Virus record (IMG/VR): IMGVR_UViG_3300042987_002090
Coordinates: 1-39,669 of that record
Length of the DNA: 39,669 nucleotides
Origin: a virus
Direction: 5' to 3' (one strand)
Part shown: piece after piece, positions 1 to 39,419 of the stretch
Layout: the number at the start of each line of letters is the position of its first letter
How positions within the stretch are numbered: position 1 is the stretch's first letter
Made by a program: the position numbers and the translations under genes
The notes under the pieces: generated by a model
Told to the model about the DNA's origin: nothing
The model's input: the letters and a program-made list of their open reading frames with translations, nothing else
Database searches by the model: none

Positions 1-1173
1 CCTGCTGCTACTGGTGCAACTATCACTTTGACTCTTGCTTCTGGTTATCACTACAACAATGGAACTGAAGCTCCATTGCGTCCTGGTGAAACTGTTCGTG
101 TTGCTTCTACAAACGTAGAAGGTCAAATCCTTGCAATCACTGGTACTACTGCTTATGGCTTTACTTTTACAGTAGCTCCTAAGCAAACTGGTCAATCTTT
201 AGCATCTGCGGGTAGCTCAAGCTTCCTTGCTACAGACGCTTTGATTTTCGGTGGTATCATGGATGCTGGTGAGGCTTCTTCAACTAATCAACCAATGATT
301 CAGTTGGATCAGAAGTACACAAACAGCATTACAGAAATGCGTGAAACTTGGAGTGCAACTGACCTTGCAGAAATGACAGAGGTTTACTACACAGGTGGTT
401 TCTCTGGAGATGTTCCTGCTGGTGGAGCGCAAGCTGGCACTTCCCTTTTCACATTAAAAGGTCTTGTAAAATCAAACGTACGTTTCAAAGATGACGTTGA
501 AATGAAATTGATGCGTGGTAACACAGTTAACAACACAGCTGTTAACTCTACTACAGTTGGTACTCAAGGTATCATCCCTCAAGTTCTTTCAAACGGAGAA
601 ACTGTTGGTTACACTCCTGGTAACTTAGACATCGCTAAATTGCACGAAATCACTCGTGTAATGGATGTTAACGGTTCTACTTCTGAGAACATCTGGTTAC
701 AAGACATCTATCAAAACCAAAACTTCTCTGACGGATTGTTTGCTGCTTACCCTGCTGGTGCTTGGGTTTGGGGTTCAAACGAAAAATCAGAAGAAGCAGC
801 TATCAATTACGGTTGCAAGTCAATCTCAATTGATGGTTATCACTTCAAGGTTAAGAAGTATCGTCCGTTTAACACAGAATATCTTTCTGGTGTTACACCT
901 ACTACAGACTACTTCCGTAATTTCGGATTAATCTGTCCTCAAGGTGAAACTCGTGATGCAAAAGATGCTTCTAAGCTTTACAAGAATATCACTATTACTT
1001 ATCAGCAACCTCCAAAAGGTGGTACTGTGGGTAACGGTATCCGTGTATGGCAATGGGGTGGTGCATCTCAGAACCCAACAACTGGAACAATGAACGACAA
1101 CGTGGAAATGATCACGTACCGCGGCGCCCGCGTAGTGGCAGCCAACCAGTTTGTTATAGTTCAGAGTGCTTAA
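1..1173 (+). CDS. major capsid protein, 5' end outside window
   Basis: The reading frame is open from base 1 without a proper start (the first in-frame candidate is a TTG at 28), so the gene begins upstream and at least 390 residues of the C-terminal part are seen. The protein is rich in Thr, Gly, Asn and Ala, has no membrane segment, and contains the segment ITEMRETWSATDLAEMTEVY at about residue 110. Its codon use differs from its neighbours: it uses GGT, CGT, ATC and AAC much more, as expected for a very highly expressed gene. It lies first in a run of structural genes and has its own terminator directly behind it. Position, expression-type codon use and composition together suggest the major capsid protein. 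Another abundant head protein is the alternative. I infer the family; no catalytic motif is available to confirm it. Confidence 0.62.
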   Translation, partial: PAATGATITLTLASGYHYNNGTEAPLRPGETVRVASTNVEGQILAITGTTAYGFTFTVAPKQTGQSLASAGSSSFLATDALIFGGIMDAGEASSTNQPMIQLDQKYTNSITEMRETWSATDLAEMTEVYYTGGFSGDVPAGGAQAGTSLFTLKGLVKSNVRFKDDVEMKLMRGNTVNNTAVNSTTVGTQGIIPQVLSNGETVGYTPGNLDIAKLHEITRVMDVNGSTSENIWLQDIYQNQNFSDGLFAAYPAGAWVWGSNEKSEEAAINYGCKSISIDGYHFKVKKYRPFNTEYLSGVTPTTDYFRNFGLICPQGETRDAKDASKLYKNITITYQQPPKGGTVGNGIRVWQWGGASQNPTTGTMNDNVEMITYRGARVVAANQFVIVQSA

Positions 1174-1210
1174 TTTCAATAAGTTATAACAACTTGTTAG
1201 TCACAAATAG

Positions 1211-1236
1211 GGGGTGGGAAATCCCACCCCTTTATT
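1211..1236 (+). terminator. Rho-independent terminator after the capsid gene
   Basis: An 8-bp GC-rich perfect stem (GGGGTGGG at 1211-1218, CCCACCCC at 1223-1230) with loop AAAT is followed by TTTATTT. It sits 38 bases after the capsid stop codon and just before a homing endonuclease gene, so it probably ends most capsid transcripts. The arm contains the GGGAA word that is enriched throughout the window. Confidence 0.85.
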
Positions 1237-1244
1237 TAAAAAAA

Positions 1245-2159
1245 ATGGGTGTAATATATAAAATAAAAAGTCCAAGTGGTAGATTATATATAGGTAAAAC
1301 TTATGATTTAAGAAAAAGAGTTAATGCCTATAAGTGTGATGTGAGAAAGGGAAGTAAAAATTTAAAGCTTCATAATAGTTTAAGAAAGTATGGGTGGGAT
1401 GCCCATGTTTTAGAAGTTGTTGAAGAAGTTTCGGATGAATTACTAAGTGAAAGGGAGATGTATTGGATTGAATATTATAAGACTTATTGTTATGAAAATC
1501 CGAAAGGATTAAATATGACAAAAGGAGGAGACGGACAAAGATCAACATGGATGCATGATGTAGAAAGGAGAGAAAAGCAGTCAGAAGTTTTTAGTGGGGA
1601 GGGAAATCCTTTTTATGGCAAAAGTCATACGGAAGAAACTAAAAAATTGTTATCTGAAAAGATAAGCAGAATTAATAAAGAACAGGGTAAAAAAATTCCA
1701 GAGTGGGGTGTTGAGAAGGGCAGGGAAGTCGTGAGACGACCTATTGTAATGTACGATTTAAAAGGTAAATTTGTAAAAGAATTCAAATCTTTAGCAGAAG
1801 CCTCAAAGGAATTAAAAATAAGCCATGCAAGTATTTCGGAAAATATTTCAGGCAAAAAGAGTCAAGCTAAAGGATATATATTTAGATATAGAGAAGAGAA
1901 TTACCCATTAGTTATTAGTGTGGGGGAAGTGAAGAAACAAACAGTAAAAAGAGAAGTTGTGGGTGTGTATGCGGGGGAAGTGATGACGTTCCCTTCAGCA
2001 TTAGAAGCATCAGAGTTCTTTAAAATACCAAAGACAACAATTAATAGGGCGGCTATGTATAATGGGGGAAGACCTATTAGAACAGGCCACCAATTTTATT
2101 ATAAAGATTTTTTTATTAAAAAACAAAACCGCCCGCATATTGCGGGGTGTGCAACTTAA
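1245..2159 (+). CDS. GIY-YIG homing endonuclease with NUMOD DNA-binding modules
   Basis: A 304-aa protein. The start ATG at 1245 is chosen because the GIY-YIG domain begins immediately there (GVIYKI, then LYIGKT at about residues 16-21). The upstream in-frame extension only overlaps the end of the capsid gene in another frame. The catalytic Arg (DLRKRVNAY), Glu (SEREMYWIE) and Asn (GLNMTKGGDG) of the family are present. A NUMOD3-type motif follows (GNPFYGKSHTEETKK), then a NUMOD1-like helix-turn-helix (PIVMYDLKGKFVKEFKSLAE) and a second, more diverged copy. It is a free-standing selfish gene inserted just behind the capsid terminator; the family cleaves intronless alleles to spread its own gene. 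Unlike the other three homing genes here it carries four GGGAAGT words, which suggests longer residence in this phage. Confidence 0.9.
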   Translation: MGVIYKIKSPSGRLYIGKTYDLRKRVNAYKCDVRKGSKNLKLHNSLRKYGWDAHVLEVVEEVSDELLSEREMYWIEYYKTYCYENPKGLNMTKGGDGQRSTWMHDVERREKQSEVFSGEGNPFYGKSHTEETKKLLSEKISRINKEQGKKIPEWGVEKGREVVRRPIVMYDLKGKFVKEFKSLAEASKELKISHASISENISGKKSQAKGYIFRYREENYPLVISVGEVKKQTVKREVVGVYAGEVMTFPSALEASEFFKIPKTTINRAAMYNGGRPIRTGHQFYYKDFFIKKQNRPHIAGCAT

Positions 2160-2182
2160 ATGGTAATTAAAAACAAACAGCT

Positions 2183-3076: not shown

Positions 3077-3082
3077 TAGAAA

Positions 3083-4395: not shown

Positions 4396-4399
4396 AACG

Positions 4400-4663
4400 A
4401 TGATACCAGTAAAAAATCAAATACTTTTTAAGCCTTTTCCGCCAGATATTATGAGCGAGGGTGGTATTTTTGTACCTGAATCAGCGAGAGAAGAGAGTAA
4501 TAGAGGATTAATAGTGGCCGTGGGAAATGGTAGTTCACATAAAAAAATGACCTTAAAACCTGGGCAAGTAGCTTATAGAGTAAAGGCATGGGGTACTCCC
4601 GTGGAGATTAATGGTGAAATGCATTACTTAATGGAAGATGCTGCAATAATTGCAACTGAATAA
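4400..4663 (+). CDS. phage GroES-like co-chaperonin
   Basis: An 87-aa protein that aligns with the Cpn10/GroES pattern from end to end: an N-terminal strand (VKNQILFKPFPP), then the mobile-loop region (SEGGIFVPESAREESNRG, where GroES has GGIVLP..A.E...RG), AVGNG, LKPGQVAYRVKAWGTPVEIN and the C-terminal LMEDAAIIATE. GroES normally has about 95 residues. In T4 and some other phages such proteins cap host GroEL so that the phage capsid protein fits in the chamber. Its place among capsid and neck genes fits that use. It is co-directional with its neighbours and 9 bases from the next gene. I am confident of the family; the substrate is inferred. Confidence 0.87.
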   Translation: MIPVKNQILFKPFPPDIMSEGGIFVPESAREESNRGLIVAVGNGSSHKKMTLKPGQVAYRVKAWGTPVEINGEMHYLMEDAAIIATE

Positions 4664-4672
4664 AAATAAAAG

Positions 4673-5443: not shown

Positions 5444-5446
5444 TAA

Positions 5447-28487: not shown

Positions 28488-29479
28488 CAAAATCTGACAT
28501 CGCAAGAAAATACCGAAATGAGTACGGTATGGAAATGCCTACGACAAAGCTTGCTCGCATTATGTACGAAAAAGAGAAACTTAGCTTTAAAGATGTAGAA
28601 GACGCAAGAACATTTTTAAGAAGAATTGAGGGGAAGACAGGAAAGGATAATAAAGTGTATAAATACAGCAAGACCCACGACTTCCCTGACAGACCAAAAA
28701 ACCCATACAGCCTACCAGAAAGCCACCAAGAAAAAAGAGAGCCATTGGTACTACCAACACAATGTAATAACATTCTGTTGATGTCGGACTTGCATATCCC
28801 ATACCATGATATTGACGCAGTAACTATTGCCCTTCAGTATGGAATAGAGAACAATGTAAATACCATAGTGATTTTGGGGGATTTGATTGACTTCCATAAG
28901 GCAAGTAGGTTTCAGCCAGACCCAAAGAAACGTAGTATCAAACAAGAGTTTGACGCTACAAAGGAGTTCTTAAGAGTTTTACGTCAGCTCTTCCCAACGC
29001 AAGAAATTTATTGGTTAAAGGGAAATCACGACGTCCGTTATGAGAAGTTTTTGCTGACTAAAGTTCAAGAGATTTGGGATGACCCATATTATCATCTTGA
29101 AGAAAGATTAAGGCTGAATGAAGAGAGAATTCATTTAATTGATGACAAGGTATTAATGAAAGCAGGAAAGTTGGCTATGACTCACGGCCATCACATTTTC
29201 AAAGGCATATTTTCCCCTGTATCACCAGCAAGAGGTGCTTGGATGAAAGCAAAACAAAGTGTAATCGTAGGTCACCTACACAGAAGTTCATATCACCCAG
29301 AGGTTGACATGGAAGGTAAAGTTACGGCAGGTTTTTCTCTTGGTTGTTTGTGTGAAAAATTACCTGATTATCAGCCACTTGTATCAAACTCTCAACACGG
29401 ATTTGCTCATGTGCTTGTTGATAAAAGCGGAGACTTCACAGTTAAGAATTATACAATAATTAATGGTAAATTGCATTAA
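28484..29479 (+). CDS. calcineurin-like metallophosphoesterase with N-terminal helical domain
   Basis: A 331-aa protein with all metal-binding motifs of the family: SDLH (Asp102, His104), GDLID (132-136), GNHD (180-183), THGHH (234-237) and GHLH (263-266). Such enzymes hydrolyse phosphodiesters or phosphomonoesters, including nucleotides and nucleic acids; phage members include DNA-repair-type nucleases and nucleotidases. The first 55 residues form a small helical domain (KSDIARKYRNEYGMEMPTTK) that resembles a helix-turn-helix and may contact DNA. It overlaps the preceding small gene (ATGA) and the following homing gene (TAATG). The substrate cannot be read from the sequence. Confidence 0.88.
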   Translation: MTKSDIARKYRNEYGMEMPTTKLARIMYEKEKLSFKDVEDARTFLRRIEGKTGKDNKVYKYSKTHDFPDRPKNPYSLPESHQEKREPLVLPTQCNNILLMSDLHIPYHDIDAVTIALQYGIENNVNTIVILGDLIDFHKASRFQPDPKKRSIKQEFDATKEFLRVLRQLFPTQEIYWLKGNHDVRYEKFLLTKVQEIWDDPYYHLEERLRLNEERIHLIDDKVLMKAGKLAMTHGHHIFKGIFSPVSPARGAWMKAKQSVIVGHLHRSSYHPEVDMEGKVTAGFSLGCLCEKLPDYQPLVSNSQHGFAHVLVDKSGDFTVKNYTIINGKLH

Positions 29480-30483
29480 TGGCGTATCTCTATAGACATA
29501 TTAGATTAGATAAAAATGAACCATTTTATATAGGTATTTCAAAAAAAGATGATGCGGGTTTCAAGAGAGCATATTCTGCCGCAAAATCTAAAAGAAATAA
29601 AATATGGATGTCTATAGCTGAAAAAACAAAATATGAGGTAGAAATACTTTTTTATGATGTTGATATAGAATTTGTTAAAAAGAAAGAAATAGAACTTATC
29701 CAATTGTATGGAAGAATTTGTTGTAAAACGGGAACTTTAGCTAATATAGGAGGAGGTGGAGAGCCTTTGTTTGATCCTCCAGATTATATCAGAAAAAAAT
29801 TAAGTGAAAATAACAAAGGAGAAAAAAATTATTGGTATGGGAGAACTCATAGCGAAGAAACAAGGAGAAAAATATCAGAAGCGCATAAAGGGAAGAAAAG
29901 ACCTTTAAAAGAAGAAACTAAAATAAAAATCGGATTAGCCAACAAAGGAAAAACTACTTGGACTAAAGGAACAAAACAAACAGAAGCAGGGTTAAAAAGG
30001 TCAGGTGTAAATCATCCGACCAATAAAGGCCCAATTCTATGTTATGATTTGAAAGGGGAATTCATTAAAGAATTTTCTTCCACAAGGGAAGCTGTAAATC
30101 ATTTTGGATATAAAAATACAAATGATATTACAAGAGTTTTAAAAGGAGAGCGTTTGTCTTGGCATGGGCATACTTTCTTTTACAAAGATGAAAGGTATGC
30201 GGAAGCGGCTGAAAAGACAAAGCAAATGAGAGTAAAAATGAGGGAAATGACTCCTAAGAAAAAAAGTGCCACGATATTTGCTGGAGGGGTTAACCACCCT
30301 TCTTATAAAGGCCCTATCCTTTGTTTTGATATGGAAGGTAATTTTGTGAGGGAATTCGTAACAACGAGAGAATGTGCAGATTATTTTGGGGCTAAGAAAA
30401 CAGGAAATGTTGCAAGAGTTTTAAAAGGAAAGTCGTTAAGCTGGTTAAAACATAAATTTACATACAAAAACATTGACAAATGA
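29479..30483 (+). CDS. GIY-YIG homing endonuclease with NUMOD3 and two NUMOD1-like units
   Basis: A 334-aa paralogue of the enzyme at 24717; the first 20 residues are almost the same (AYLYRHIRLDKNEPFYIGIS). The catalytic Glu (VKKKEIELIQLYGR) and Asn region (LANIGGGGEP) are present. NUMOD3-type motifs follow (EKNYWYGRTHSEETRRK), then two NUMOD1-like units near residues 185 and 272 (GPILCYDLKGEFIKEFSSTR and GPILCFDMEGNFVREFVTTR). It is inserted with a TAATG overlap to the metallophosphoesterase and an ATGA overlap to the Nmad1 gene, so it fits without breaking either. It contains no GGGAAGT word. Confidence 0.88.
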   Translation: MAYLYRHIRLDKNEPFYIGISKKDDAGFKRAYSAAKSKRNKIWMSIAEKTKYEVEILFYDVDIEFVKKKEIELIQLYGRICCKTGTLANIGGGGEPLFDPPDYIRKKLSENNKGEKNYWYGRTHSEETRRKISEAHKGKKRPLKEETKIKIGLANKGKTTWTKGTKQTEAGLKRSGVNHPTNKGPILCYDLKGEFIKEFSSTREAVNHFGYKNTNDITRVLKGERLSWHGHTFFYKDERYAEAAEKTKQMRVKMREMTPKKKSATIFAGGVNHPSYKGPILCFDMEGNFVREFVTTRECADYFGAKKTGNVARVLKGKSLSWLKHKFTYKNIDK

Positions 30484-31369: not shown

Positions 31370-31377
31370 TATATTTG
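31370..31377 (+). promoter_or_regulatory. -7 box in front of the HNH gene
   Basis: TATATTTG is a perfect TAnnTTTG box, three bases before the ATG at 31381; a good -33 box is not visible. If active, it would give a leaderless message for the homing endonuclease. Confidence 0.4.
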
Positions 31378-31380
31378 TTT

Positions 31381-32307
31381 ATGCAAAGGCCTAAAGATTA
31401 TATCATATATGATGTTGTAAATAAAAAAGACATTCATATTAAAGTTGGATCTATAGTTGAAACTTGCAAACAACTTAATTTTGACGCTACTTCTTTGCCA
31501 AAATTAAATCCTAAAACACATATTTCCCATAGGTATATCTTCCCCGAAGCAAAAGAAAGAATATTTACTCTTGTAGATATAGAAACAGAAAAAGAGTACG
31601 ATTGTATAACCAACGGTACAATATTTCAGCATTTTAATATTCCTTATTCTGAAAATGAAGCTAAATATATTTATGAATTAAGAAAGGGGAGACAAGGGAA
31701 AGCTTCTGTTTGCGGTAAATTGTTTTATTTAAAAGGAGGAAGAAAGTCAAAAGCAGTAGCAACAGTAAAGGTTGTTCCAAGTTTAATTAAAAAAGAATTA
31801 GAAAATTACAAATTAAAGAAAATTATAAAAGCCCGTATTCAAGCAAGAATAAGTGCGGCTTTATCCGTTCATAAAATTTGTAAAAATGTAAAAACGGAGG
31901 AATTATTAGGTTGCAAAATATCTTCATTTAAAGAATATATTGAGTCAAAATTTACAAATTTTATGGGTTGGCGCAACAGACATTTGTGGCATATAGACCA
32001 TATTATCCCATGTAATTCTTTTGACCTTACAGATTTTGAACAACAAAAAAAATGTTTTAATTATACTAATCTGCAACCAATTTGGAAAACAACAAAAGTG
32101 GCTTGTAAAATGGGAGAAACAGATTATCAAGGGAATATAGATAAAAAAGATAAAGGACCGCAATATGATTATTTTCTTGCAAGTAAAATATGCAAAGAAT
32201 TCCCAGACGAAGTAACTAATTCAGAAGCTAAAGAGTTGGCATCCAACCTTTTCGGTTTTGGTCTCAGAAAAATTTTGCCAGAACATCTACATCTCTACGA
32301 CAAGTAA
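31381..32307 (+). CDS. HNH homing endonuclease (308 aa)
   Basis: The C-terminal half has the phage HNH pattern: LLGCKISSFKEYIESKF, then HLWHIDHIIPCNSFDLTD with the catalytic His pair, and the final FNYTNLQPIW (about residues 176-237). The N-terminal 140 residues contain segments (FTLVDIETEKEYDC, FQHFNIPYSENEAKYIYELR) that look like a DNA-recognition module similar to NUMOD-type units. ATG 31381 is chosen over a TTG six bases upstream that is part of the -7 box. It is the last + strand gene before the convergent early block. No GGGAAGT word is present, so it may be a recent arrival. Confidence 0.87.
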   Translation: MQRPKDYIIYDVVNKKDIHIKVGSIVETCKQLNFDATSLPKLNPKTHISHRYIFPEAKERIFTLVDIETEKEYDCITNGTIFQHFNIPYSENEAKYIYELRKGRQGKASVCGKLFYLKGGRKSKAVATVKVVPSLIKKELENYKLKKIIKARIQARISAALSVHKICKNVKTEELLGCKISSFKEYIESKFTNFMGWRNRHLWHIDHIIPCNSFDLTDFEQQKKCFNYTNLQPIWKTTKVACKMGETDYQGNIDKKDKGPQYDYFLASKICKEFPDEVTNSEAKELASNLFGFGLRKILPEHLHLYDK

Positions 32308-32321
32308 CACTTCCCTCCCCC

Positions 32322-32354
32322 AAAAAAAACTCCCAGCGTAAATACGCCAGGAGT
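32322..32354 (-). terminator. strong terminator ending the early block
   Basis: Read on the - strand, ACTCCTGGCGT and ACGCTGGGAGT form an 11-bp stem with two G.T pairs and a 4-base loop (arms at 32344-32354 and 32329-32339), followed by a run of eight T. It ends transcription of the - strand block before it runs into the + strand late genes. Confidence 0.88.
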
Positions 32355-32389
32355 AAACTTACACCATGAAATCCAAACCTATGAAACCT

Positions 32390-32530
32390 TTAATTCGCTT
32401 TTCTAATTTCGTAACCTGCTACTTTTAATTTAGTACTATCCTTTACTACCTTCCCATCAGTATAAACCTTTTGTATTGTGCATGATGTCAGGGAAGTGAC
32501 AACAGCCAATGCTAATAATAATTTTCTCAT
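32390..32530 (-). CDS. small lipoprotein (46 aa)
   Basis: The frame starts at ATG 32530 and reads MRKLLLALAVVTSLTSC, a lipoprotein signal with lipobox LTSC (Cys17), then a 29-residue mature tail (TIQKVYTDGKVVKDSTKLKV...). It would be exported and anchored in a membrane. Small phage lipoproteins can act in superinfection exclusion; that is only a possibility. It is the last gene before the terminator at 32322. GGGAAGT is present in antisense within the signal region. Confidence 0.68.
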   Translation of the reverse strand: MRKLLLALAVVTSLTSCTIQKVYTDGKVVKDSTKLKVAGYEIRKAN

Positions 32531-32539
32531 ACCACAAAA

Positions 32540-32758
32540 TTAGGAATTTTCCCCGTATGTTTCATTGTAGTATTGTTCTGCGTCAAATTTGTGAAACAAT
32601 CTTGTTCCATTATCGTATGCCTCAATTATCTGTGCTTCTTCTATTTGTTTGGCTTGTTTTATTTTATCCTTATATAATTTTCTCAATTCTTCAGAATCGA
32701 AAGAAACTAATCCAAGTAAATTTATATCCAACCATTCTACTGTTGTTTGTTGTTTCAT
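32540..32758 (-). CDS. small phage protein of the QYYNETYG type (72 aa)
   Basis: The product begins MKQQTTVEWLDINLL and ends DAEQYYNETYGENS, with a helix carrying IKQAKQIEEAQIIEAYDNGT between. This is a family often seen in Bacteroidetes phages and prophages, without known function. A paralogue lies at 33507 (QQTAVDYIAK..., EQYYNDVYG). It has the common A-rich leader ending AAACAAATAAGCTATG. Confidence 0.7.
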   Translation of the reverse strand: MKQQTTVEWLDINLLGLVSFDSEELRKLYKDKIKQAKQIEEAQIIEAYDNGTRLFHKFDAEQYYNETYGENS

Positions 32759-32761
32759 AGC

Positions 32762-33109
32762 TTATTTGTTTTTAATGTTAGGGGAAGTGGTGTCAGGAGT
32801 TCCCTCCACAACCTCATAAGTAGTTTCAAATATATCTTTATCAACAAGCCATCTTTCACCTTTTACTCCTACACATAGATATTCTCTACCAAATCCATGA
32901 CTTAAATGTTTTTGGTTTTCTAATGTACTTATATATGGCACTTTGATTTCGTGTTCTCCACAAATACCAGAAGTATGTATGCATCCATCTTCATCATTGT
33001 AATATCTACTTATAAATCCATCTTCATCTCCTTCTTCAAATAGTTTAGCTTGAACGGTAGTTATTTTTCTGTAAGTTATTTTTCTGTAAGTTTTTGTTTG
33101 TTGTGCCAT
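32762..33109 (-). CDS. unknown early protein (115 aa) with shared ends
   Basis: A soluble protein with several Cys/His (DGCIHTSGICGEHEI) that might bind a metal. A 15-base tandem repeat (33061-33090) duplicates TYRKI near the N-terminus. The first five codons (MAQQT) and the C-terminal VEGTPDTTSPN are the same as in the unrelated gene at 33507. No family recognised. Confidence 0.65.
   Translation of the reverse strand: MAQQTKTYRKITYRKITTVQAKLFEEGDEDGFISRYYNDEDGCIHTSGICGEHEIKVPYISTLENQKHLSHGFGREYLCVGVKGERWLVDKDIFETTYEVVEGTPDTTSPNIKNK
32777..32810. repeat. 34-bp repeat, copy 1 (3' end of the 115-aa gene)
   Basis: This copy is identical to 33513-33546. It contains GGGGAAGT, 11 other bases, and GTTCCC, so it carries the GGGAA word in inverted orientation. 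It encodes the tail VEGTPDTTSPN. Confidence 0.95.
33061..33090. repeat. perfect 15-bp tandem duplication
   Basis: TTATTTTTCTGTAAG occurs twice head to tail; it keeps the reading frame and adds five residues to the 115-aa protein. The perfect identity points to a recent slip event. Confidence 0.95.
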
Positions 33110-33113
33110 AGTT

Positions 33114-33491
33114 TTATTTGTTTTTAGCTATTTCAATTAGTTTCTTAAGACAAGCAAGTTCTGCCTCTTCGTAGGTGGTAAAACTTCCATCATATTCATC
33201 TTTAAAATCTTCAAAATCTGTTATAGAATAACTATGTCTATTCCATAGACGTGATGGTAAACTGTGTCTTAAATTATACTTTTCTCTAAACCATCTAAAT
33301 GCTTGTTGGTATAGTGGTGCTGCAACCATTATTGATGTAGAATTAAAATGAAAAGCATTAACCTCTTCCTTCATTGGCGTTGGTTTCAATTTATATGAAT
33401 CCTCAATGTCATAATAACAAATACACGCTTCATCAAAACCTAATACTTTAACTTCTAATGCTTGTTCGTAGGGGATAAATTCTTTTTTCAT
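33114..33491 (-). CDS. conserved phage/prophage protein, unknown function (125 aa)
   Basis: The pattern FIPYEQALEVKVLGFDEACI near the N-terminus and PLYQQAFRWFREKYNL near residue 59 is one I recognise from many Bacteroidetes phages and prophages, where the protein has no assigned role. It ends in a helix (YEEAELACLKKLIEIAKNK). Soluble. Leader AAAAAACAAATAAAACTATG. Confidence 0.75.
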   Translation of the reverse strand: MKKEFIPYEQALEVKVLGFDEACICYYDIEDSYKLKPTPMKEEVNAFHFNSTSIMVAAPLYQQAFRWFREKYNLRHSLPSRLWNRHSYSITDFEDFKDEYDGSFTTYEEAELACLKKLIEIAKNK

Positions 33492-33506
33492 AGTTTTATT
33501 TGTTTT

Positions 33507-33752
33507 TTATTGGTTAGGGGAAGTGGTGTCAGGAGTTCCCTCCACACCATAAACATCATTGTAGTATTGTTCAGTTGTTTTTGGTGTATGGTCAAATGAA
33601 TGATATGTACATCCTTCTTTGTATCCATCCATATTAGCTTTCATTATCTGCTGTTTTTCAAGCTCTTTAGCTCTTTCGTATAAACCTGAATCTACATACC
33701 CAAGTTCTATTGCAATTTTTGCAATATAGTCCACTGCTGTTTGTTGTGCCAT
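33507..33752 (-). CDS. small phage protein of the QYYNETYG type (81 aa), shared C-terminal tail
   Basis: It is a paralogue of the gene at 32540: QQT.V start, a helix with AKELEKQQIMKANMDG, then TTEQYYNDVYG. After that family end it carries an extra tail, VEGTPDTTSPN, encoded by a 34-base sequence also found at the end of the 115-aa gene. The tail therefore looks added to an existing gene end. Confidence 0.72.
   Translation of the reverse strand: MAQQTAVDYIAKIAIELGYVDSGLYERAKELEKQQIMKANMDGYKEGCTYHSFDHTPKTTEQYYNDVYGVEGTPDTTSPNQ
33513..33546. repeat. 34-bp repeat, copy 2 (3' end of the 81-aa gene)
   Basis: Identical to 32777-32810, 736 bases away. A shorter relative (GGTTAAGGGAAGTGGTATTT) lies at 33771-33790 between two other genes. 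Confidence 0.95.
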
Positions 33753-33795
33753 AGTTTATTTGTTTTTATTGGTTAAGGGAAGTGGTATTTCCCAA

Positions 33796-33993
33796 TTAAT
33801 CTAATCTATCCCACAATATCTCTTTCACTTCTTTCCAGTAGTAATACTCTTTCTCATAGAACTCACAAGTTTGATAGGCTCTTTCAAATGCAATATAACT
33901 TGCAAGGTCTTTATTCTTACTCATTACGCCTTTTAATTCATTTAAGATTTCTTCTGCTTTTTCGTTGGGAAGTAGCTGTTCTCTGTCAATCAT
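33796..33993 (-). CDS. small early protein, unknown function (65 aa)
   Basis: ATG at 33993 is chosen (MIDREQLLPNEKAEEILNEL) because the leader directly upstream, TTAAAACTAAAAAAT, fits this block; the longer frame begins with a non-ATG codon inside a terminator. The product is helical and charged and ends VKEILWDRLD. The type is common in Bacteroidetes phages, without known role. Confidence 0.68.
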   Translation of the reverse strand: MIDREQLLPNEKAEEILNELKGVMSKNKDLASYIAFERAYQTCEFYEKEYYYWKEVKEILWDRLD

Positions 33994-34009
33994 ATTTTTT
34001 AGTTTTAAG

Positions 34010-34047
34010 TTTTTTAAAATAAGCCCCTGATGTAGAAACAACGGGGC
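34010..34047 (-). terminator. terminator between early genes
   Basis: On the - strand GCCCC (34047-34043) pairs with GGGGC (34027-34023) over a 15-base loop, followed by TTATTTTAAAA. The stem is short but the tail fits. It separates the 112-aa gene from the 65-aa gene. Confidence 0.55.
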
Positions 34048-34085
34048 GATGACCCTATATTTGAAACCAAACGCATATAAATTTT

Positions 34086-34424
34086 TTATTCTTCGTGTAG
34101 GAAAGATTTTGTTCCATCAGGGTTTTCTTTTGCTGAGTAGAAATGTATCTTTTTAGGTACGGGGAATTGCTTGTCAAACTCCCTTGCACTTAGCCACTTC
34201 CCTTCAACCATAGTCCTCATTACCCCCTCAGAAGTAAGTTGCCATACCCTATTATTCCTAAACTCTTTTGCTTTAAGCCAATCCGATACTGGTGTATTGC
34301 TTACTTTTTTCTTTGACATACGCTTTAATTTTCGGGAAAAATTAGGTTTGTTACCTTGTTTAGAATAGTCAAGCCGATAGCTAATGCTACCCAAATAATC
34401 ATCATGTTTGTCATATACTTTCAC
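34086..34424 (-). CDS. unknown early protein (112 aa), GTG start
   Basis: The frame begins at GTG 34424 behind an A-rich leader (CATTAAAAAATTAAAAA). The product is basic at the N-terminus (KLKRMSKKKVSN) and then has VSDWLKAKEFRNNRVWQLTS and KWLSAREFDKQFPV, two similar tryptophan-helix units with K or S-A-(K/R)-E-F that may be a small repeat. No family recognised; nucleic-acid binding is possible from the charge. Confidence 0.62.
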   Translation of the reverse strand: MKVYDKHDDYLGSISYRLDYSKQGNKPNFSRKLKRMSKKKVSNTPVSDWLKAKEFRNNRVWQLTSEGVMRTMVEGKWLSAREFDKQFPVPKKIHFYSAKENPDGTKSFLHEE

Positions 34425-34455
34425 TTTTTAATTTTTTAATGGGTGGGAAATGGTG

Positions 34456-34695
34456 CTATTGATTGTTATCACTTCCCGTTTCATACACTAATCCTGAACT
34501 ATTCAAATTAAGTTCAACCCACCTTGCGCTTTCTAATGCCTCTTTATATGTTTTATCTTTACCCCATACTTCTGGATTTTTGGAGTGATCGTAAATGTGT
34601 GTGCTTACAATTTTTTCTTCTCCATTTTCATCTACGGAAAATACTTGAAATTGAGTTAGTCCGTTTTTTGCTACATCATAAATTCTTGCTTTCAT
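34456..34695 (-). CDS. unknown early protein (79 aa)
   Basis: ATG at 34695 (MKARIYDVAKNGLTQFQVFS) is chosen: it has the leader AACATTAAAAACAAAACAACT, while the longer frame runs back into the promoter at 34724. The product is a small mixed fold ending in LVYETGSDNNQ. Unrecognised. Confidence 0.66.
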   Translation of the reverse strand: MKARIYDVAKNGLTQFQVFSVDENGEEKIVSTHIYDHSKNPEVWGKDKTYKEALESARWVELNLNSSGLVYETGSDNNQ

Positions 34696-34723
34696 AGTTG
34701 TTTTGTTTTTAATGTTAGGAAAA

Positions 34724-34755
34724 TAAAGGTAGATACTAATTATCAACCTACCAAA
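34724..34755 (-). promoter_or_regulatory. early promoter with GGTTGATAATT operator-like motif
   Basis: On the - strand TTTGG (34755-34751), a 19-base spacer and TACCTTTA (34731-34724) match the Bacteroidetes promoter layout, with one mismatch in the last base. The spacer holds GGTTGATAATT (34748-34738), also found at 36358-36368 and 39006-39016. It drives the 79-aa gene at 34695. Confidence 0.68.
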
Positions 34756-35032
34756 TAAAGTTTAAATAAATATCGGATAATGTTTTTTTCTTTTCAGGGT
34801 TTTCGTTTAGGACTTCCAAGTTAGTGTACCCTTGTTGTTTTAGTTCTTCTAATAAGGGGAAGTACTCATTGAGGGTCGCCATTTCCCTGCCTATCAAATA
34901 CTCTTTACTACAAGCCGAATGTTGTCCATTATGGGAATAACTGGTCTTATTACCCCTACTATCTGCTGTCAGGTCAGGGAAGTATGCAAACACTTCCCCG
35001 TCTTTCTCCTTGAAAAAAATTACTTTGGGCAT
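34748..35032 (-). CDS. conserved small phage protein (94 aa)
   Basis: MPKVIFFKEKDGEVFAYFPD then YSHNGQHSACSKEYL and a C-terminal LKQQGYTNLEVLNE match a family common in Bacteroidetes phages that has IIFF..K.GE..A.FP and Y.H.GQH..C; its role is not known. The 3' end overlaps the promoter motif at 34748. Confidence 0.76.
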   Translation of the reverse strand: MPKVIFFKEKDGEVFAYFPDLTADSRGNKTSYSHNGQHSACSKEYLIGREMATLNEYFPLLEELKQQGYTNLEVLNENPEKKKTLSDIYLNFIW

Positions 35033-35040
35033 AATCGTTA

Positions 35041-35136
35041 CTAATGTTTAAAGATTAAGAAATACGTTTCCATTATGGCATAAACCCAGTAAGCAAGTAT
35101 AAAGCCACTTACTAAGATGATATGTATTATTCTCAT
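35041..35136 (-). CDS. 31-aa membrane peptide
   Basis: ATG 35136 overlaps the stop of the preceding gene (ATGA). The product, MRIIHIILVSGFILAYWVYA then IMETYFLIFKH, is a single membrane helix. The overlap and the hydrophobic composition support a real gene despite its length. Confidence 0.55.
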   Translation of the reverse strand: MRIIHIILVSGFILAYWVYAIMETYFLIFKH

Positions 35137-35411
35137 ATTGCTAACCAGTTATCCCAATTCTCTTGTTTTTTAAGGTTTGCCAGTTCCCTTTCTAAATATT
35201 TAATTTTATTTTCAAGGGCATAGGGGTTTTTAACTTGTTCTGTTTTAAGTTTCTTTTTTAATACTCTTATTTGTGCCTCTAATTTTGTTTTGTTTGGTTG
35301 GGGAAGTCGTGAGGATTGCTCACACTTGTCCGCCACTTCCCTTGCCCAATTATTAAAATGTTCTGGGGTATCTTTATACCCTTCGGGATAAATTGTTTTT
35401 GCTATTCTCAT
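35133..35411 (-). CDS. unknown early protein with coiled coil (92 aa)
   Basis: The N-terminal 40 residues (MRIAKTIYPEGYKDTPEHFN) form a small domain, and residues 43-82 a Lys/Glu coiled coil (LEAQIRVLKKKLKTEQVK). Its start overlaps the stop of the 58-aa gene (ATGA) and its stop overlaps the next start (ATGA). A GGGAAGTCGTG word lies on the opposite strand at 35301. Unrecognised. Confidence 0.66.
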   Translation of the reverse strand: MRIAKTIYPEGYKDTPEHFNNWAREVADKCEQSSRLPQPNKTKLEAQIRVLKKKLKTEQVKNPYALENKIKYLERELANLKKQENWDNWLAI

Positions 35412-35584
35412 ATATCAAGGTTTAAGAATTGTTTAATGCTATCAGGTTGAAATCCTGCCCCTAATAGTAATTGCTCTACTCCTATCATCACTTCCCCTAA
35501 TTCTGTTAAAAATTCACTATCATTATCCACTTCAATAGTTGTTGTCTGCCCCGATAATGTCAGGGATAGTTTAAATGTTGCCAT
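35408..35584 (-). CDS. small early protein (58 aa)
   Basis: ATG 35584 has the leader AAAAAAACAAAACAATT. The product begins MATFKLSLTLSGQTTTIEVD and ends in helices (GEVMIGVEQLLLGAGFQPDS). The TGA overlaps the next gene's ATG. Proteins of this look are common in phages of this group; no known function. Confidence 0.66.
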   Translation of the reverse strand: MATFKLSLTLSGQTTTIEVDNDSEFLTELGEVMIGVEQLLLGAGFQPDSIKQFLNLDI

Positions 35585-35599
35585 AATTGTTTTGTTTTT

Positions 35600-35851
35600 T
35601 TAATTTAATTTAGTTATTGATTTTATTATTTGATAGTGTCTATCCGATACCCCCGATAATTCAAGGTTTTCTTTTAGAAATCTATCGTGTACCTTTTTTC
35701 TTTTTGCGTTAGTTGTATCTCTTAGATAATGCCGATATTCGTATGCCCAAAAGTATGCTACGCCCATATAGTTATCACTTCCCACAAATCCAAAATCCAA
35801 TTCCATAATATCCGTAAATGCTCTTAATGTAATAGTATTTAAGTTTAACAT
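35600..35851 (-). CDS. unknown early protein (83 aa)
   Basis: A basic, Tyr-rich helical protein (MLNLNTITLRAFTDIMELDF, AYEYRHYLRDTTNAKRKKVH). No membrane segment. No family recognised. It follows the terminator at 35874 and therefore probably has its own promoter, which I could not identify with confidence. Confidence 0.6.
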   Translation of the reverse strand: MLNLNTITLRAFTDIMELDFGFVGSDNYMGVAYFWAYEYRHYLRDTTNAKRKKVHDRFLKENLELSGVSDRHYQIIKSITKLN

Positions 35852-35873
35852 ATAAAATTATTTTTAAGGTAAG

Positions 35874-35918
35874 GGAAATAAAGCCCCTTAAAAAACCACT
35901 TCGGATAAAATCAGGGGC
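35874..35918 (-). terminator. terminator-like hairpin between early genes
   Basis: On the - strand GCCCCT (35918-35913) and AGGGGC (35888-35883) pair over a long A/T-rich loop and are followed by TTTATTT. The same GCCCC/GGGGC arm is used at 34023-34047. Confidence 0.5.
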
Positions 35919-35941
35919 AGTCGTTTTTCGTGTCAATTATT

Positions 35942-36142
35942 TTAATCTGCAAGCTCGTTCCAATCTCTTTTAATGTACCCCCTTACTCCGAACCATACCA
36001 ATACAACCAAATGGAAGAAAGGAGCAGTAAAAAATAGGACTAACTTACTAAGCAACTGGTTTTCTTCTTCGTCAATTCTAAATTTGTAGATAGCAATAGT
36101 CCAGAGTAATAGCCAAAAGGCGAAGCAAAATAATACTAACAT
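35942..36142 (-). CDS. small membrane protein (66 aa)
   Basis: Two membrane helices (LVLFCFAFWLLLWTIAIYKF and LVLFFTAPFFHLVVLVWFGV) around a short charged loop (RIDEEENQL), with a basic-acidic tail (YIKRDWNELAD). Leader CTTAAAACAAAACACTATG. An early inner-membrane protein such as a superinfection-exclusion factor is possible but unproven. Confidence 0.62.
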   Translation of the reverse strand: MLVLFCFAFWLLLWTIAIYKFRIDEEENQLLSKLVLFFTAPFFHLVVLVWFGVRGYIKRDWNELAD

Positions 36143-36159
36143 AGTGTTTTGTTTTAAGG

Positions 36160-36306
36160 TTAAGAATTAAATTCATTTTTATACCAAAGTGCTGACTCAA
36201 TTATTTTTTGTATCAATTCTTCATTGGTTAGGTAAACTAATTCCGAGCTATCAAATTCATCGGATAGTAATTCTTCCAATGTTTCAACTAAATACTTTCT
36301 GTCCAT
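36160..36306 (-). CDS. small acidic protein (48 aa)
   Basis: ATG 36306 (MDRKYLVETLEELLSDEFDS) is chosen because of the leader CCTAAAACAAAACACT. The product is a short acidic helical protein ending ALWYKNEFNS. Unrecognised. Confidence 0.58.
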   Translation of the reverse strand: MDRKYLVETLEELLSDEFDSSELVYLTNEELIQKIIESALWYKNEFNS

Positions 36307-36345
36307 AGTGTTTTGTTTTAGGGTGTTTGTTAATTTGTTTATGCA

Positions 36346-36377
36346 ATAATAACTGATAATTATCAACCTTATTGCAA
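36346..36377 (-). promoter_or_regulatory. early promoter region with GGTTGATAATT motif
   Basis: GGTTGATAATT (- strand, 36368-36358) is followed six bases later by TATTATTG, one mismatch from TAnnTTTG, and preceded by TTTG (36377-36374). It probably drives the 48-aa gene and those after it. Confidence 0.55.
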
Positions 36378-36407
36378 ATGGTTTGTTAAAGGTTTGTTAA
36401 TGTGGTT

Positions 36408-36671
36408 TTATATTTCTTCTAATTTAATTGGGTATTCTCTTTCTGCACTTCCCTCATCTTCACTACTTACCAATTCTTTAGATAGGGAAATGGTGTAAAG
36501 CTCATACCCGTCAGTTCCCCCGTCATTATCTAATAACTTTGTGTAAAATTCAAGGGCGTATCTTTTGTTATTTTCTTCGGTATCGTCTGCAAATCTATGC
36601 CAATAATCTACAAAGGTGTTAGGGGTTTCATTATGTTTTAGGGTGTATGCTACAATATAGGTGCTATTCAT
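36408..36671 (-). CDS. unknown early protein (87 aa)
   Basis: A soluble acidic protein (MNSTYIVAYTLKHNETPNTF, then RYALEFYTKLLDNDGG, then YELYTISLSKELVSSEDEGS). A strand-helix-strand plan is likely. The start overlaps the stop of the 62-aa gene as ATGA. Unrecognised. Confidence 0.62.
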   Translation of the reverse strand: MNSTYIVAYTLKHNETPNTFVDYWHRFADDTEENNKRYALEFYTKLLDNDGGTDGYELYTISLSKELVSSEDEGSAEREYPIKLEEI

Positions 36672-36856
36672 TTTGTTTTGTTTTTAGGGTTTTTTAATAA
36701 TTCACTTACAATTATATCCTGCACTTCAAATTCGCTTTCATTATCCGTATCGGTGCAATCGGGTACATATCCTAATTTTACCAATTTATCGGTAATTCTT
36801 ATGGATATATCGTTAATATCGTCATAAGTTAATACTCCAAAGTTTACGTTTTCCAT
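36668..36856 (-). CDS. unknown early protein (62 aa)
   Basis: An acidic protein beginning MENVNFGVLTYDDINDISIR and ending LLKNPKNKTK; its last codons (AAA ACA AAA) double as the A-rich leader of the next gene, with the ATGA overlap. Unrecognised. Confidence 0.6.
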   Translation of the reverse strand: MENVNFGVLTYDDINDISIRITDKLVKLGYVPDCTDTDNESEFEVQDIIVSELLKNPKNKTK

Positions 36857-36867
36857 TTTGTTTTGTT

Positions 36868-37074
36868 TTATAGGTTTATTAATTTAAAATTTGGTACATT
36901 TTCGTTTAAATAATCTACCATACAGCTATATTCGTCTTTTTTGGGGTTATCGTAGGGAGATTTTAAATAATCTTCGTACATTCTGCATACTTCTTCAAAT
37001 AAAAAATCGTAAGGAGTTTCAGTAGGATAAAAATTATCAAATAATTTACTGAACAGGTAAAAGGAGTAATTCAT
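36868..37074 (-). CDS. unknown early protein (68 aa)
   Basis: Rich in Tyr, Phe and Asp (MNYSFYLFSKLFDNFYPTET). No membrane segment is long enough to be sure. The leader is CTTAAAAACAAAACAAA, preceded by the TTCCC word. Unrecognised. Confidence 0.6.
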   Translation of the reverse strand: MNYSFYLFSKLFDNFYPTETPYDFLFEEVCRMYEDYLKSPYDNPKKDEYSCMVDYLNENVPNFKLINL

Positions 37075-37105
37075 TTTGTTTTGTTTTTAAGTTTGGGAAT
37101 TGGTG

Positions 37106-37300
37106 TTAATCAACTTGTAAATTCTCTAAAAAATTAGTGTATTTATCGTATAAATCATTGAAAATATCTTGTGCTTGTTCGGTGTAGCGACTTCCCCCCT
37201 CCTCATCATCTTCATAAATTTCTAAATTGGGGTTATCTTTTACTAATTCCATTTCAGCCAATTCGCTGGCTACTTCTATTAAATTGATAGTAATGTTCAT
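37106..37300 (-). CDS. unknown early acidic protein (64 aa)
   Basis: ATG 37300 (MNITINLIEVASELAEMELV) is chosen over an upstream in-frame ATG that lies in the promoter region. The product is strongly acidic (NLEIYEDDEEGG). Small acidic early proteins often imitate DNA, but nothing here proves it. Confidence 0.58.
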   Translation of the reverse strand: MNITINLIEVASELAEMELVKDNPNLEIYEDDEEGGSRYTEQAQDIFNDLYDKYTNFLENLQVD

Positions 37301-37332
37301 TTTTTTGGTTTTTAGGTGTTTGTTAATATGTA

Positions 37333-37357
37333 GCAAGTTAAATGATAATTGTAAACT
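37333..37357 (-). promoter_or_regulatory. early promoter candidate, AGTTTACAATT motif
   Basis: AGTTTACAATT (- strand, 37357-37347) is followed by TAACTTGC in the place of a -7 box. It aligns with the motif at 34738, 36358, 38603 and 39006, but its boxes are weaker. Confidence 0.45.
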
Positions 37358-37397
37358 TTGCTTGTTTTAGGGTGTTAATGTTTTGTTAAAATGGGAA

Positions 37398-37700
37398 TTA
37401 CCAATACACAGGACTTCCCGAAATATCCTCGCCCCAATAATCGTGCATTATTCCGTTAATTTCTATATATTGGGTATTTTCTTTTTCGTCCTCACTCCAA
37501 TCAGTCCAATAACAAGCCCCGTCCTCGTATGCTTCTTTATAGTCCTTATATCCTAAATTTTGCGCTAATTTATTCGCACTTTCTTCGTCCTTTGCGTATT
37601 CATTGCCTTCATTAAATACCCAACCTTGCCACATTCCTTGACCAGTTATTGAGCAAATACGAGCATATTTTATCCCTTGTTGTGTGTTTTGTTGTGTCAT
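37398..37700 (-). CDS. unknown early protein (100 aa)
   Basis: Begins MTQQNTQQGIKYARICSITG and contains QGWVFNEGNEYAKDEESANK and GACYWTDWSEDEKENTQYIE. It is acidic and rich in Trp and Tyr; the ARICSITG and GMWQGWVF segments suggest a small binding domain. No family assigned. Confidence 0.64.
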   Translation of the reverse strand: MTQQNTQQGIKYARICSITGQGMWQGWVFNEGNEYAKDEESANKLAQNLGYKDYKEAYEDGACYWTDWSEDEKENTQYIEINGIMHDYWGEDISGSPVYW

Positions 37701-37711
37701 TTTATTAGGTT

Positions 37712-37900
37712 TTATTTTGTTTTTAAATAATTCTTTTTTAGCCAGTCAATTAATACTTTTGCACTTTCTTCATTCAGGGAAAGGTGCTTCGTATCTTTCC
37801 CGTTACCATTACAAAAAACTTTTATAGTTGGTGCATATGGAGTTAAATTAGGCCTAACTTTTGTTAATTCGCTTTTATAGTAGTTTTGTTGTGTGTTCAT
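37712..37900 (-). CDS. unknown early protein (62 aa)
   Basis: MNTQQNYYKSELTKVRPNLT then TIKVFCNGNGKDTKHLSLNE and a final helix (AKVLIDWLKKNYLKTK). A small basic protein; unrecognised. The leader is AACATTAAAAAAATAAACCA with the TTCCC word before it. Confidence 0.6.
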   Translation of the reverse strand: MNTQQNYYKSELTKVRPNLTPYAPTIKVFCNGNGKDTKHLSLNEESAKVLIDWLKKNYLKTK

Positions 37901-37928
37901 TGGTTTATTTTTTTAATGTTTGGGAATT

Positions 37929-37957
37929 GGCGAGGGTGTACCTTGACTTCCCTCGCC
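37929..37957. repeat. 8-bp inverted repeat in an early intergenic gap
   Basis: GGCGAGGG (37929-37936) and CCCTCGCC (37950-37957) can pair over a 13-base loop that contains ACTTCCC partly in the arm. There is no T-run, so it may be an attenuator or mRNA-stabilising hairpin after the 198-aa gene. Confidence 0.7.
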
Positions 37958-37968
37958 TTATAGTTAAT

Positions 37969-38565
37969 TTATAGGGTAATATAGCCGCCTTCTAATTCTT
38001 CCAATATTTCTTCCTGCGACATATATTCGGGCAAAAATTCGCTTTCGTTCTCGTCATATTTAAAAAGTCGGGCATTGGTGTAACCCCCTCTAACATCACA
38101 ACCTCCGTGAATTTGCAACAAAAGATAACTTTCGCCCTCAATTTCAAGCCACGAACCTTGTAAAACTTGCGAAAGGTCGCTATCGTGGTTGTATGTATTG
38201 AATGTTCTTAATATTTTAACATCAAAAAATGCCGTTAGCACTTCCCACGCCTTACCACTTACTCCATATACTTCAGCGTTAGCGTCCCAATCGTTAGCGT
38301 CCTTATTTATTTTATTGAATTTATTGCAAATTTCGTCTAATTCAAGCCCCATTGATAAAATGTAATGAAATACACTTACTCGCCTATCAATGTAGTCATT
38401 CTCTTTTGTGTAAGATACTGGGCTTTCGTTTCTAAAATCTTCAATCGTCTTTTTAGCGTTCCTTTCGTGGTTTCTTCCGTAATGGTCGCCACTATCTAAA
38501 AAATGGTTTCCAGTATTTTCGGTTAACATTTCAAAGATTGCTTTTTCAAGTTTTGTTGATTTCAT
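37969..38565 (-). CDS. conserved phage protein of unknown function (198 aa)
   Basis: The N-terminal pattern TGNHFLDSGDHYGRNHERNA (about residues 17-36), then RRVSVFHYILSMGLELDEIC, is one I have met in proteins of many phages and plasmids from diverse hosts; no role is established. The C-terminal half (QGSWLEIEGESYLLLQIHGG) is beta-rich and has GGCDVRGGYTNARLF. It is the largest product of the early block and has its own upstream promoter motif at 38589. Confidence 0.75.
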   Translation of the reverse strand: MKSTKLEKAIFEMLTENTGNHFLDSGDHYGRNHERNAKKTIEDFRNESPVSYTKENDYIDRRVSVFHYILSMGLELDEICNKFNKINKDANDWDANAEVYGVSGKAWEVLTAFFDVKILRTFNTYNHDSDLSQVLQGSWLEIEGESYLLLQIHGGCDVRGGYTNARLFKYDENESEFLPEYMSQEEILEELEGGYITL

Positions 38566-38588
38566 AATTGTAGTTTTTTAATGTTTGA

Positions 38589-38613
38589 TAAAATTAGGGT
38601 ATAAATGTAAACC
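38589..38613 (-). promoter_or_regulatory. early promoter candidate, GGTTTACATTT motif
   Basis: GGTTTACATTT (- strand, 38613-38603), six bases, then TAATTTTA, near the TAnnTTTG box. CATTAACAAA is found upstream, as at the other early promoters. It drives the 198-aa gene at 38565. Confidence 0.5.
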
Positions 38614-38648
38614 TTGTTAAATTAGTTTGTTAATGTTTTGTGAAAGGT

Positions 38649-38674
38649 AGGGAATTGATAGCGACCAATTCCCT
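38649..38674. repeat. 9-bp inverted repeat AGGGAATTG / CAATTCCCT
   Basis: A perfect 9-bp stem over an 8-base loop just after the 28-aa gene. Each arm carries the GGGAA word. No T-run is present. Confidence 0.8.
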
Positions 38675-38681
38675 GACCATA

Positions 38682-38768
38682 CTACCATAAATTAGTACTA
38701 TTTACGAAGCCATCGGAATTGATCCAATTAGTAAATTTTGCAAATAGTTTTTTTAGTGTGTTTTTCAT
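38682..38768 (-). CDS. 28-aa basic peptide
   Basis: ATG 38768 begins MKNTLKKLFAKFTNWINSDG and the frame ends VNSTNLW. It is preceded by AATAATAAAACA and lies seven bases after the stop of the 59-aa gene, whose first codons (MKNT) are also the same. An amphipathic basic peptide; a longer upstream frame overlaps the 59-aa gene and is rejected. Confidence 0.5.
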   Translation of the reverse strand: MKNTLKKLFAKFTNWINSDGFVNSTNLW

Positions 38769-38775
38769 TGTTTTA

Positions 38776-38955
38776 TTATTTTTTAGTAATTGAATAGAAA
38801 TAATTAAAAGAGGCAAGGCCTGAAATACAAGATAAAAGACAAGACAAAAAAAGATTTTCTTTTGAGGGGTTAGTAACTGCAAAAAACATAACAGGAATAA
38901 AGAAAGTCATAAAAGCATAAAATAAGCCGATAGCGAAATAAATTGTGTTTTTCAT
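38776..38955 (-). CDS. small membrane protein (59 aa)
   Basis: ATG 38955, product MKNTIYFAIGLFYAFMTFFI then PVMFFAVTNPSKENLFLSCL and SFNYFYSITKK: two membrane helices around a short loop. It is the first gene behind the best early promoter (38991), so it is probably made at once after infection; early membrane proteins often alter the host envelope or block superinfection. That role is inferred. Confidence 0.66.
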   Translation of the reverse strand: MKNTIYFAIGLFYAFMTFFIPVMFFAVTNPSKENLFLSCLLSCISGLASFNYFYSITKK

Positions 38956-38990
38956 TGTTTGGGGTTTTTAGTGTGTTTGTTAATTGAGTG

Positions 38991-39023
38991 CAAATATACG
39001 TTTGCAATTATCAACCTTCCAAA
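38991..39023 (-). promoter_or_regulatory. strong early promoter of the - strand block
   Basis: On the - strand TTTGG (39023-39019), a 20-base spacer, and TATATTTG (38998-38991), the best consensus match of the block. The spacer contains GGTTGATAATT (39016-39006). It reads into the 59-aa gene. Confidence 0.78.
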
Positions 39024-39029
39024 TTTAGC

Positions 39030-39419
39030 CATACGTATTTTTGAAAAAATAAACCCCTAATTTTTCGTAAGTATAAACCCTTACCACCACTTCCCCCCTT
39101 ATAAAAAAATATAAAGAGAGAGAGAATAAAACAACTGCCCCCTTGATACTTACCACTTCCCGCCATAACATAACAACTCACTAACAACTGAATAACAAGT
39201 AAGCCCAACCAGATAGGCAACACTTCCCGCCAATTAACCCAACACACAAAGCAAAAGAAAGGAACACCAACCAACCTACAACCGCAACACAAGGCATTAA
39301 ACCGCCTTACGTTGCCATTTCCCCAACCCAACCAACCGACAACAATTCCCTGAACACACAGGCATAAAACAAAAAAAACAGGGGTACGGGGTAAAGGAAA
39401 GCTAAACCCCCAAAAACCA
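39030..39419. other. non-coding, strongly A/C-rich stretch
   Basis: The + strand here is very rich in A and C (for example GCAAAAGAAAGGAACACCAA) and poor in G and T, unlike the rest of the window. The only long frame (- strand, 39011-39331) needs a TTG start, has odd composition (Gly, Cys, Phe) and no A-rich leader, so I do not call it. It carries ACTTCCC three times (39088, 39153 and 39223, approximately). It lies upstream of the first early promoter. Confidence 0.6.

Follow-up and report, generated by a model that had tools for sequence, protein, structure and literature searches.

What makes a short DNA word recur, on both strands and inside and outside genes, along a stretch of phage DNA at some thirty times its chance frequency? 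The question is raised by a viral sequence of 39,669 nucleotides (IMG/VR record IMGVR_UViG_3300042987_002090), analysed here at its full length and referred to as the window, in which the heptamer GGGAAGT and its complement ACTTCCC are strongly over-represented. An initial annotation, made by eye, estimated about 37 and 41 copies (about 80 together) and about 250 copies of GGGAA/TTCCC, where two to three and about 45 were expected, that is, an excess of about 30-fold. It proposed as possible causes a Chi-like recombination signal of the host, a binding site for a phage nucleoid, packaging or segregation protein, or the target of a protective DNA modification. An exact count over the 39.7-kb window came very close to these estimates, with 258 pentamers (164 GGGAA and 94 TTCCC), zero-order expectations of 2.6 for the heptamer (30.5-fold exceeded) and 45.9 for the pentamer, and heptamers distributed as follows:

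439-39228, both strands: 80 exact copies, GGGAAGT 38 times on the plus strand and 42 times on the minus strand (read as ACTTCCC), mean spacing 491 bp

A second-order Markov model predicted 6.4 heptamers against the 80 observed (z 28), and GGGAAGT/ACTTCCC surpassed all other 7-mers of the window by z, with runners-up that overlap it. The maximal-order model predicted 64, but that model already includes the 6-mers of the motif itself. The 105 distinct rearrangements of the same letters had a median count of 4, and the best 7-mer free of GGGA, GGAA, GAAGT and AAGTG reached a z of 6.4; z-scores and E-values are used here as descriptive only. The count is thus far from the Markov expectation and unrelated G-rich words do not share the excess, the two outcomes that the initial annotation had named as removing the signal. 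The longer repeat GGGAAGTCGTG was likewise confirmed, with five direct copies (1723, 14431, 24214, 27009 and 35301) and an inverted one (28676).

Protein sequence had been dismissed as the cause, and this was borne out. The heptamers of the window lie 36 times in sense, 30 times in antisense and 14 times in intergenic position, and in all reading frames, with gene starts set by hand from open reading frames. A shuffle of synonymous codons that preserved both protein and codon usage gave 5.8±2.1 copies, compared with 66 seen in coding sequences (z 28.5). Chance or a codon artefact is ruled out by base composition, the Markov model, the codon-position correction and the synonymous shuffle. The density of GGGAAGT is 4.5 per kb in noncoding and 1.8 per kb in coding DNA, a 2.5-fold difference in the direction expected if coding constraint restrains a signal that is favoured everywhere. 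Sites are found on either strand, both along and against the genes and also between them, so the signal works through DNA rather than through transcripts. The heptamer shows no strong strand bias over the window as a whole, a point that the initial annotation had proposed to test; one-sided orientation was found only in the last 4 kb (0 versus 8), both orientations occurring across nearly all parts, a distribution without the polarity of KOPS or SRS elements. No Rfam family was found. Copies are especially dense in two regions:

32310-39331: early region of short minus-strand genes, 22 GGGAAGT, 3.1 per kb
18963-24143, plus strand: large tail-fibre-like gene, 44 GGGAANT, 8.5 per kb, about twice the window average

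GGGAA is frequent even in four homing-endonuclease-like genes (29 copies, about 4 expected by composition), although the full GGGAAGT is missing from three of them:

1242-2159: homing-endonuclease-like gene with GIY-YIG and NUMOD domains (Pfam)
24717-25889: homing-endonuclease-like gene, GIY-YIG-like as judged by eye only
29479-30483: homing-endonuclease-like gene with NUMOD domains (Pfam)
31375-32307: homing-endonuclease-like gene, HNH-like as judged by eye only

Among the other genes of the window, a GroES-like co-chaperonin gene (4400-4663, PHROG 3188) is situated amid the virion genes.

The initial annotation undersold the signal, as the heptamer is only the core of a graded motif of about 30 bp, present at about 200 places. 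Because an unanchored EM motif search drifted into codon periodicity, the core was held at GGGAA and the flanks were compared with codon-position-specific expectations. With this correction, GGGAAGT lies in the middle of a larger asymmetric motif whose flanks extend from about -15 to +16. Upstream, a tract from about -15 to -8 is rich in T and poor in C, most clearly at positions -12 to -8, with a weaker depletion of C out to -17, and G is preferred at -5, -4 and -1. Downstream, the GGGAA sites prefer G at +5, T at +6 (73% of sites), G at +7, T at +9 and G at +10, followed by C or T at +12, A at +13 and a base other than T at +16. The pattern holds in each of the three subsets, sense, antisense and intergenic, and is sharpest in the last (96% T at +6). 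One-mismatch forms of GGGAA within GGGAAGT are at background (50 seen, 47.6 expected), and several substitutions at +5 to +7 are still enriched; recognition of the GGGAA core is close to all-or-none, and the best form of the signal is GGGAAGTG. The cores are summarized as follows:

1-39669, both strands: 258 GGGAA/TTCCC cores, about 199 of them (77%) assigned by a mixture model to T-rich(-15 to -8) ... GGGAA-G-T-G-N-T-G-N-Y-A

The word was also looked for in related phages, as the initial annotation had proposed, and was found enriched in eight long contigs, G001 (57 kb), G002 (71 kb), G406, G007, G408, G009, G010 and G407, and in many shorter ones. These relatives come from metagenomes and may be incomplete; the eight were examined over 40-70 kb each. 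In them the heptamer is enriched 9- to 16-fold and GGGAA 2.7- to 4.5-fold, and GGGAAGTG is divided between strands 16/14 in G001 and 19/19 in G002. The motif profile was rediscovered independently in two groups, which use two dialects: that of group A (G001, G002, G406 and G007) is close to the profile of the window, and in that of group B (G408, G009, G010 and G407) the core is preceded by TGGTGG and followed by TGGC. In the parts of the window that align with G001 and G002 (about 71-72% DNA identity), 44-55% of GGGAA words are kept, compared with 21% of all 5-mers, a conservation that marks the GGGAA sites as selected positions with turnover. A signal selected at the DNA level is supported.

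The signal is restricted to this lineage. Sister lineages with many genes in common lack the GGGAAGT enrichment, and their GGGAA sites have no such flanking motif. Megablast found no match for 20 kb of the window among 50,697 phage records, a scan of viral contigs with a 16-base motif returned contigs without strong enrichment, and in the papers searched, whether by the word itself or by phage motifs of genome-wide spread, the signal is not described. Some other phages have frequent words of their own. The sister phage G412 (L254-L255), devoid of the GGGAA signal, has 108 GGCGG (35 expected) and 28 TTGGCGG (4.5 expected), with no flanking motif around GGCGG. TTCGGG/TTCGGGT is over-represented in the more distant relatives G415 (L258-L261), L221 and L224, and ACCCGAA occurs 16 times in L221 and L224, where about 2 are expected. 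The Maribacter phage Panino (L262) has TGATAGTG (23 versus 1.3 expected; GATAGTG has 25 of its 27 copies on one strand, perhaps a set of promoters or operators) and GCTGTGG (23 versus 2.4). GGCGG, TTCGGGT, CAGGA and the Panino word TGATAGTG were rejected as instances of the same signal, being without T-tract flanks.

The initial annotation had also suggested a test for even spacing, and evenness was rejected: heptamers of the window are spaced at random (coefficient of variation 1.09 versus 0.98±0.11). At short range, sites on the same strand are depleted below about 40 nt and every type of close pair is scarce below 20 nt, while convergent pairs (GGGAA...TTCCC) exceed expectation about 1.5- to 2-fold overall at 20-60 nt. 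The window has 33 such pairs (15.6 expected) and group A 105 (71 expected); in group B (41 versus 17.3) the excess occurs at 20-40 nt only, and, as these counts pool related genomes, some pairs are inherited and not independent. Pair-distance counts in non-enriched phages revealed no comparable exclusion or convergent-pair pattern. The arrangement looks like a footprint in which inverted pairs are weakly preferred, although the compositional demands of the flanks may explain part of the same-strand exclusion. Examples of convergent pairs are:

32782-32804: convergent (inverted) pair GGGAAGTGGTGTCAGGAGTTCCC, outer distance 23, repeated at 33518-33540
24214-24240: convergent pair GGGAAGTCGTGGTAGCCATGACTTCCC in the gap that follows the tail-fibre gene, forming an inverted repeat around three central bases
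34977-34998: convergent pair GGGAAGTATGCAAACACTTCCC, within an early minus-strand gene

The inverted repeat at 24214-24240 could double as a terminator.

The host of these uncultured phages is probably a member of the Bacteroidota, because the endolysin resembles Flavobacteriaceae genes and phage Panino of Maribacter is a distant relative. A scan of genomes with the endolysin found only moderately similar genes, mostly from Flavobacteriaceae (up to about 54%), and a scan of bacterial genomes with the profile of a structural protein found no relative. The search for the word in host chromosomes, as suggested by the initial annotation, was made in 395 Bacteroidota genomes, of which none has it at phage density: there GGGAAGTG occurs at about 5-115 per Mb, whereas the window has about 1160 and G002 about 540, though the actual host may lie outside this set. 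The highest value, about 114 per Mb, is that of G195, and the flanking motif is absent from 100-kb samples of two of the top outliers, G195 and G384.

The window is a fragment without replication or recombination genes. Among the proteins of the lineage are a RusA-like resolvase and a RecE-like exonuclease, so that it carries out recombination-type DNA processing; also encoded are a TOPRIM primase-helicase, a Lin1244-type initiator and a DUF932 protein. Among loci retrieved by way of recombination and terminase proteins, enrichment is common to contigs with the RecE-like exonuclease at at least 64% identity, a limit that holds for all enriched contigs where the exonuclease was found, and to contigs with the terminase at at least 76%. 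In non-enriched sisters the exonuclease is 36-39% and the primase 62-71% identical. The exonuclease split is confounded with lineage, as capsid and terminase divide likewise, and the recombination module is a lead for the reader, a correlation within a lineage and not an identification. The primase was rejected as reader, since enrichment does not track its gene: it is 71% identical in non-enriched phages (GC 0.30-0.32) and 66-69% in enriched ones, and G408 carries the motif with a primase only 32% identical. In another contig, G409 (L232-L235), the RecE-like exonuclease gene is mirrored at both ends (1447-2082, minus strand, and 70346-70981, plus strand), suggesting an inverted terminal duplication or an assembly artefact.

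Distributed binding sites for a DNA-acting factor of the phage lineage are favoured because the signal ignores transcription, has a strict core, is genome-wide and lineage-specific, and forms dialects. The preferred reading, held tentatively, is that the sites work with such a factor much as Chi does, in recombination, in the protection of ends or in replication coupled to recombination. GGGAAGTG would then be the core of an asymmetric recognition site of about 30-35 bp, present every 200 bp or so on average (about 200 in 39.7 kb). A sequence-specific factor, which we infer to be a protein encoded most likely by the phage lineage and less likely by the host, would read it; GGGAA would be indispensable, recognition would be strengthened by T at +6, by G at +7 and by TG at +9/+10, and the upstream T-rich, C-poor tract of about 8-10 bp would set the context. 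Such a distributed cis-signal may, as Chi does, protect ends and/or direct how the phage genome recombines and how it replicates by way of recombination. Enrichment of Chi, the site of RecBCD/AddAB, is documented in recombination-dependent phages, and Chi is likewise short and asymmetric, with a strict core, occurring in coding and noncoding DNA and selected in recombining phages (PMC3784561). The phage motif differs from Chi in its graded T-tract flanks of about 30 bp, its same-strand exclusion and convergent pairing, and its lower density in candidate host chromosomes. Its own density also counts against the Chi-like reading, as GGGAAGT at 1.8-4.5 per kb and motif sites at about 5 per kb are far above the 0.2 per kb of E. 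coli Chi (PMC3784561), 10 to 25 times denser.

The strict 5-bp core, graded flanks and footprint-like exclusion fit an architectural protein about equally well, which also counts against a Chi-like role. An architectural or packaging protein (nucleoid, segregation or condensing) that binds asymmetric sites of about 30 bp whose T-tract can bend, and so organises or packs the genome, is a doubtful but serious alternative. About one site per 200 bp on both strands, the random spacing and the upstream T-rich tract would suit it, as would the exclusion and the preferred convergent pairs, reminiscent of a footprint and a dimer arrangement. Architectural proteins usually tolerate core mismatches, contrary to the background level of one-mismatch cores, and none of the proteins searched, which included some of the small ORFs, is a candidate. 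Gbn of Streptomyces provides a precedent, being a nucleoid protein that binds specifically to a short consensus (PMC9239103). From the proposals of the initial annotation, a recombination, nucleoid or packaging site of the phage lineage is retained and preferred.

It is unlikely that the motif is the Chi site of a host AddAB or RecBCD enzyme, adopted by the phage against degradation. The Chi of B. subtilis AddAB has five bases, which makes the strict 5-base core similar to it, and the group-B dialect shares with E. coli Chi a TGGTGG, there upstream of the core. Lambdoid phages without RecBCD inhibitors over-represent Chi, but Chi densities are alike in phage and host in E. coli (PMC3784561), unlike those found with the 395 Bacteroidota genomes and the two outliers devoid of flanks. 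The Chi-like proposal of the initial annotation is kept as a recombination site of the phage lineage, a Chi shared with the host being disfavoured. Phage-directed endonuclease or nick sites, comparable to the single-strand interruptions of T5-like and Pseudomonas phages, are quite improbable. Such phages do carry lineage-specific enriched motifs, such as WACTRTGAC, present inside and outside genes and conserved beyond sequence similarity in 61 Pseudomonas phages, but that motif occurs about 13 times per genome on one strand (PMC11780129), compared with about 200 sites on both strands here. If all of these were nicked, the over-represented convergent pairs would be at risk of double-strand breaks. 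A protective sequence-specific modification is very unlikely as well. Phages with such modification are known, and modification enzymes typically recognise an asymmetric core of 5 bp in an all-or-none manner. The proposal is possible, but in its plain form it leaves the graded flanks and same-strand exclusion, unexpected for a methyltransferase, unexplained, and no DNA modification gene was found in the subset of G002 and window proteins searched. Recognition by the phage primase/helicase for lagging-strand priming has almost nothing left in its favour: primases read short words and the lineage encodes a TOPRIM primase-helicase, but the distribution of the primase gene given above largely refutes it.

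Two other types of repeated site deserve comparison. Stoperators number a few dozen, are for the most part placed in the short gaps between genes and follow the direction of transcription, whereas the phage motif has no gene-strand preference (36 sense, 30 antisense) and is only 2.5 times denser in noncoding DNA. Haemophilus uptake sequences (USS) have T-rich flanks, and we know of no uptake role for phage genomes; unlike the phage motif, uptake sequences belong to the chromosomes of naturally transforming bacteria. The likenesses are that the stoperators of Cluster A mycobacteriophages are asymmetric repressor sites also repeated across the phage genome (PMC9283540), and that Neisseria DNA uptake sequences (PMC2397512), like USS, have a short genome-wide core in coding and noncoding DNA.

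It is quite possible, though short of probable, that these tailed phages have a Chi-like or chromatin-like system of their own, with a genome-wide cis-signal (T-tract plus GGGAANTGNTG) about once per 200 bp, read by a phage protein whose specificity diverged between subclades to give the two dialects. If the true host shares the motif, the signal would count as a form of Chi rather than as a new system. Short genome-wide signals are a hallmark of chromosome organisation, repair and protection in cells, while the phage cases known to us either take over a word of the host, as with Chi, or consist of a few dozen sites, as with stoperators and nicks. If the reading is true, about 5 sites per kb were reshaped at a cost in codon choice, which would imply strong selection by an undescribed DNA-reading factor. 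The two dialects and the non-enriched sisters would make this reader findable by genetics or pull-down, and the question of whether a phage can own its Chi or chromatin code would become directly testable.
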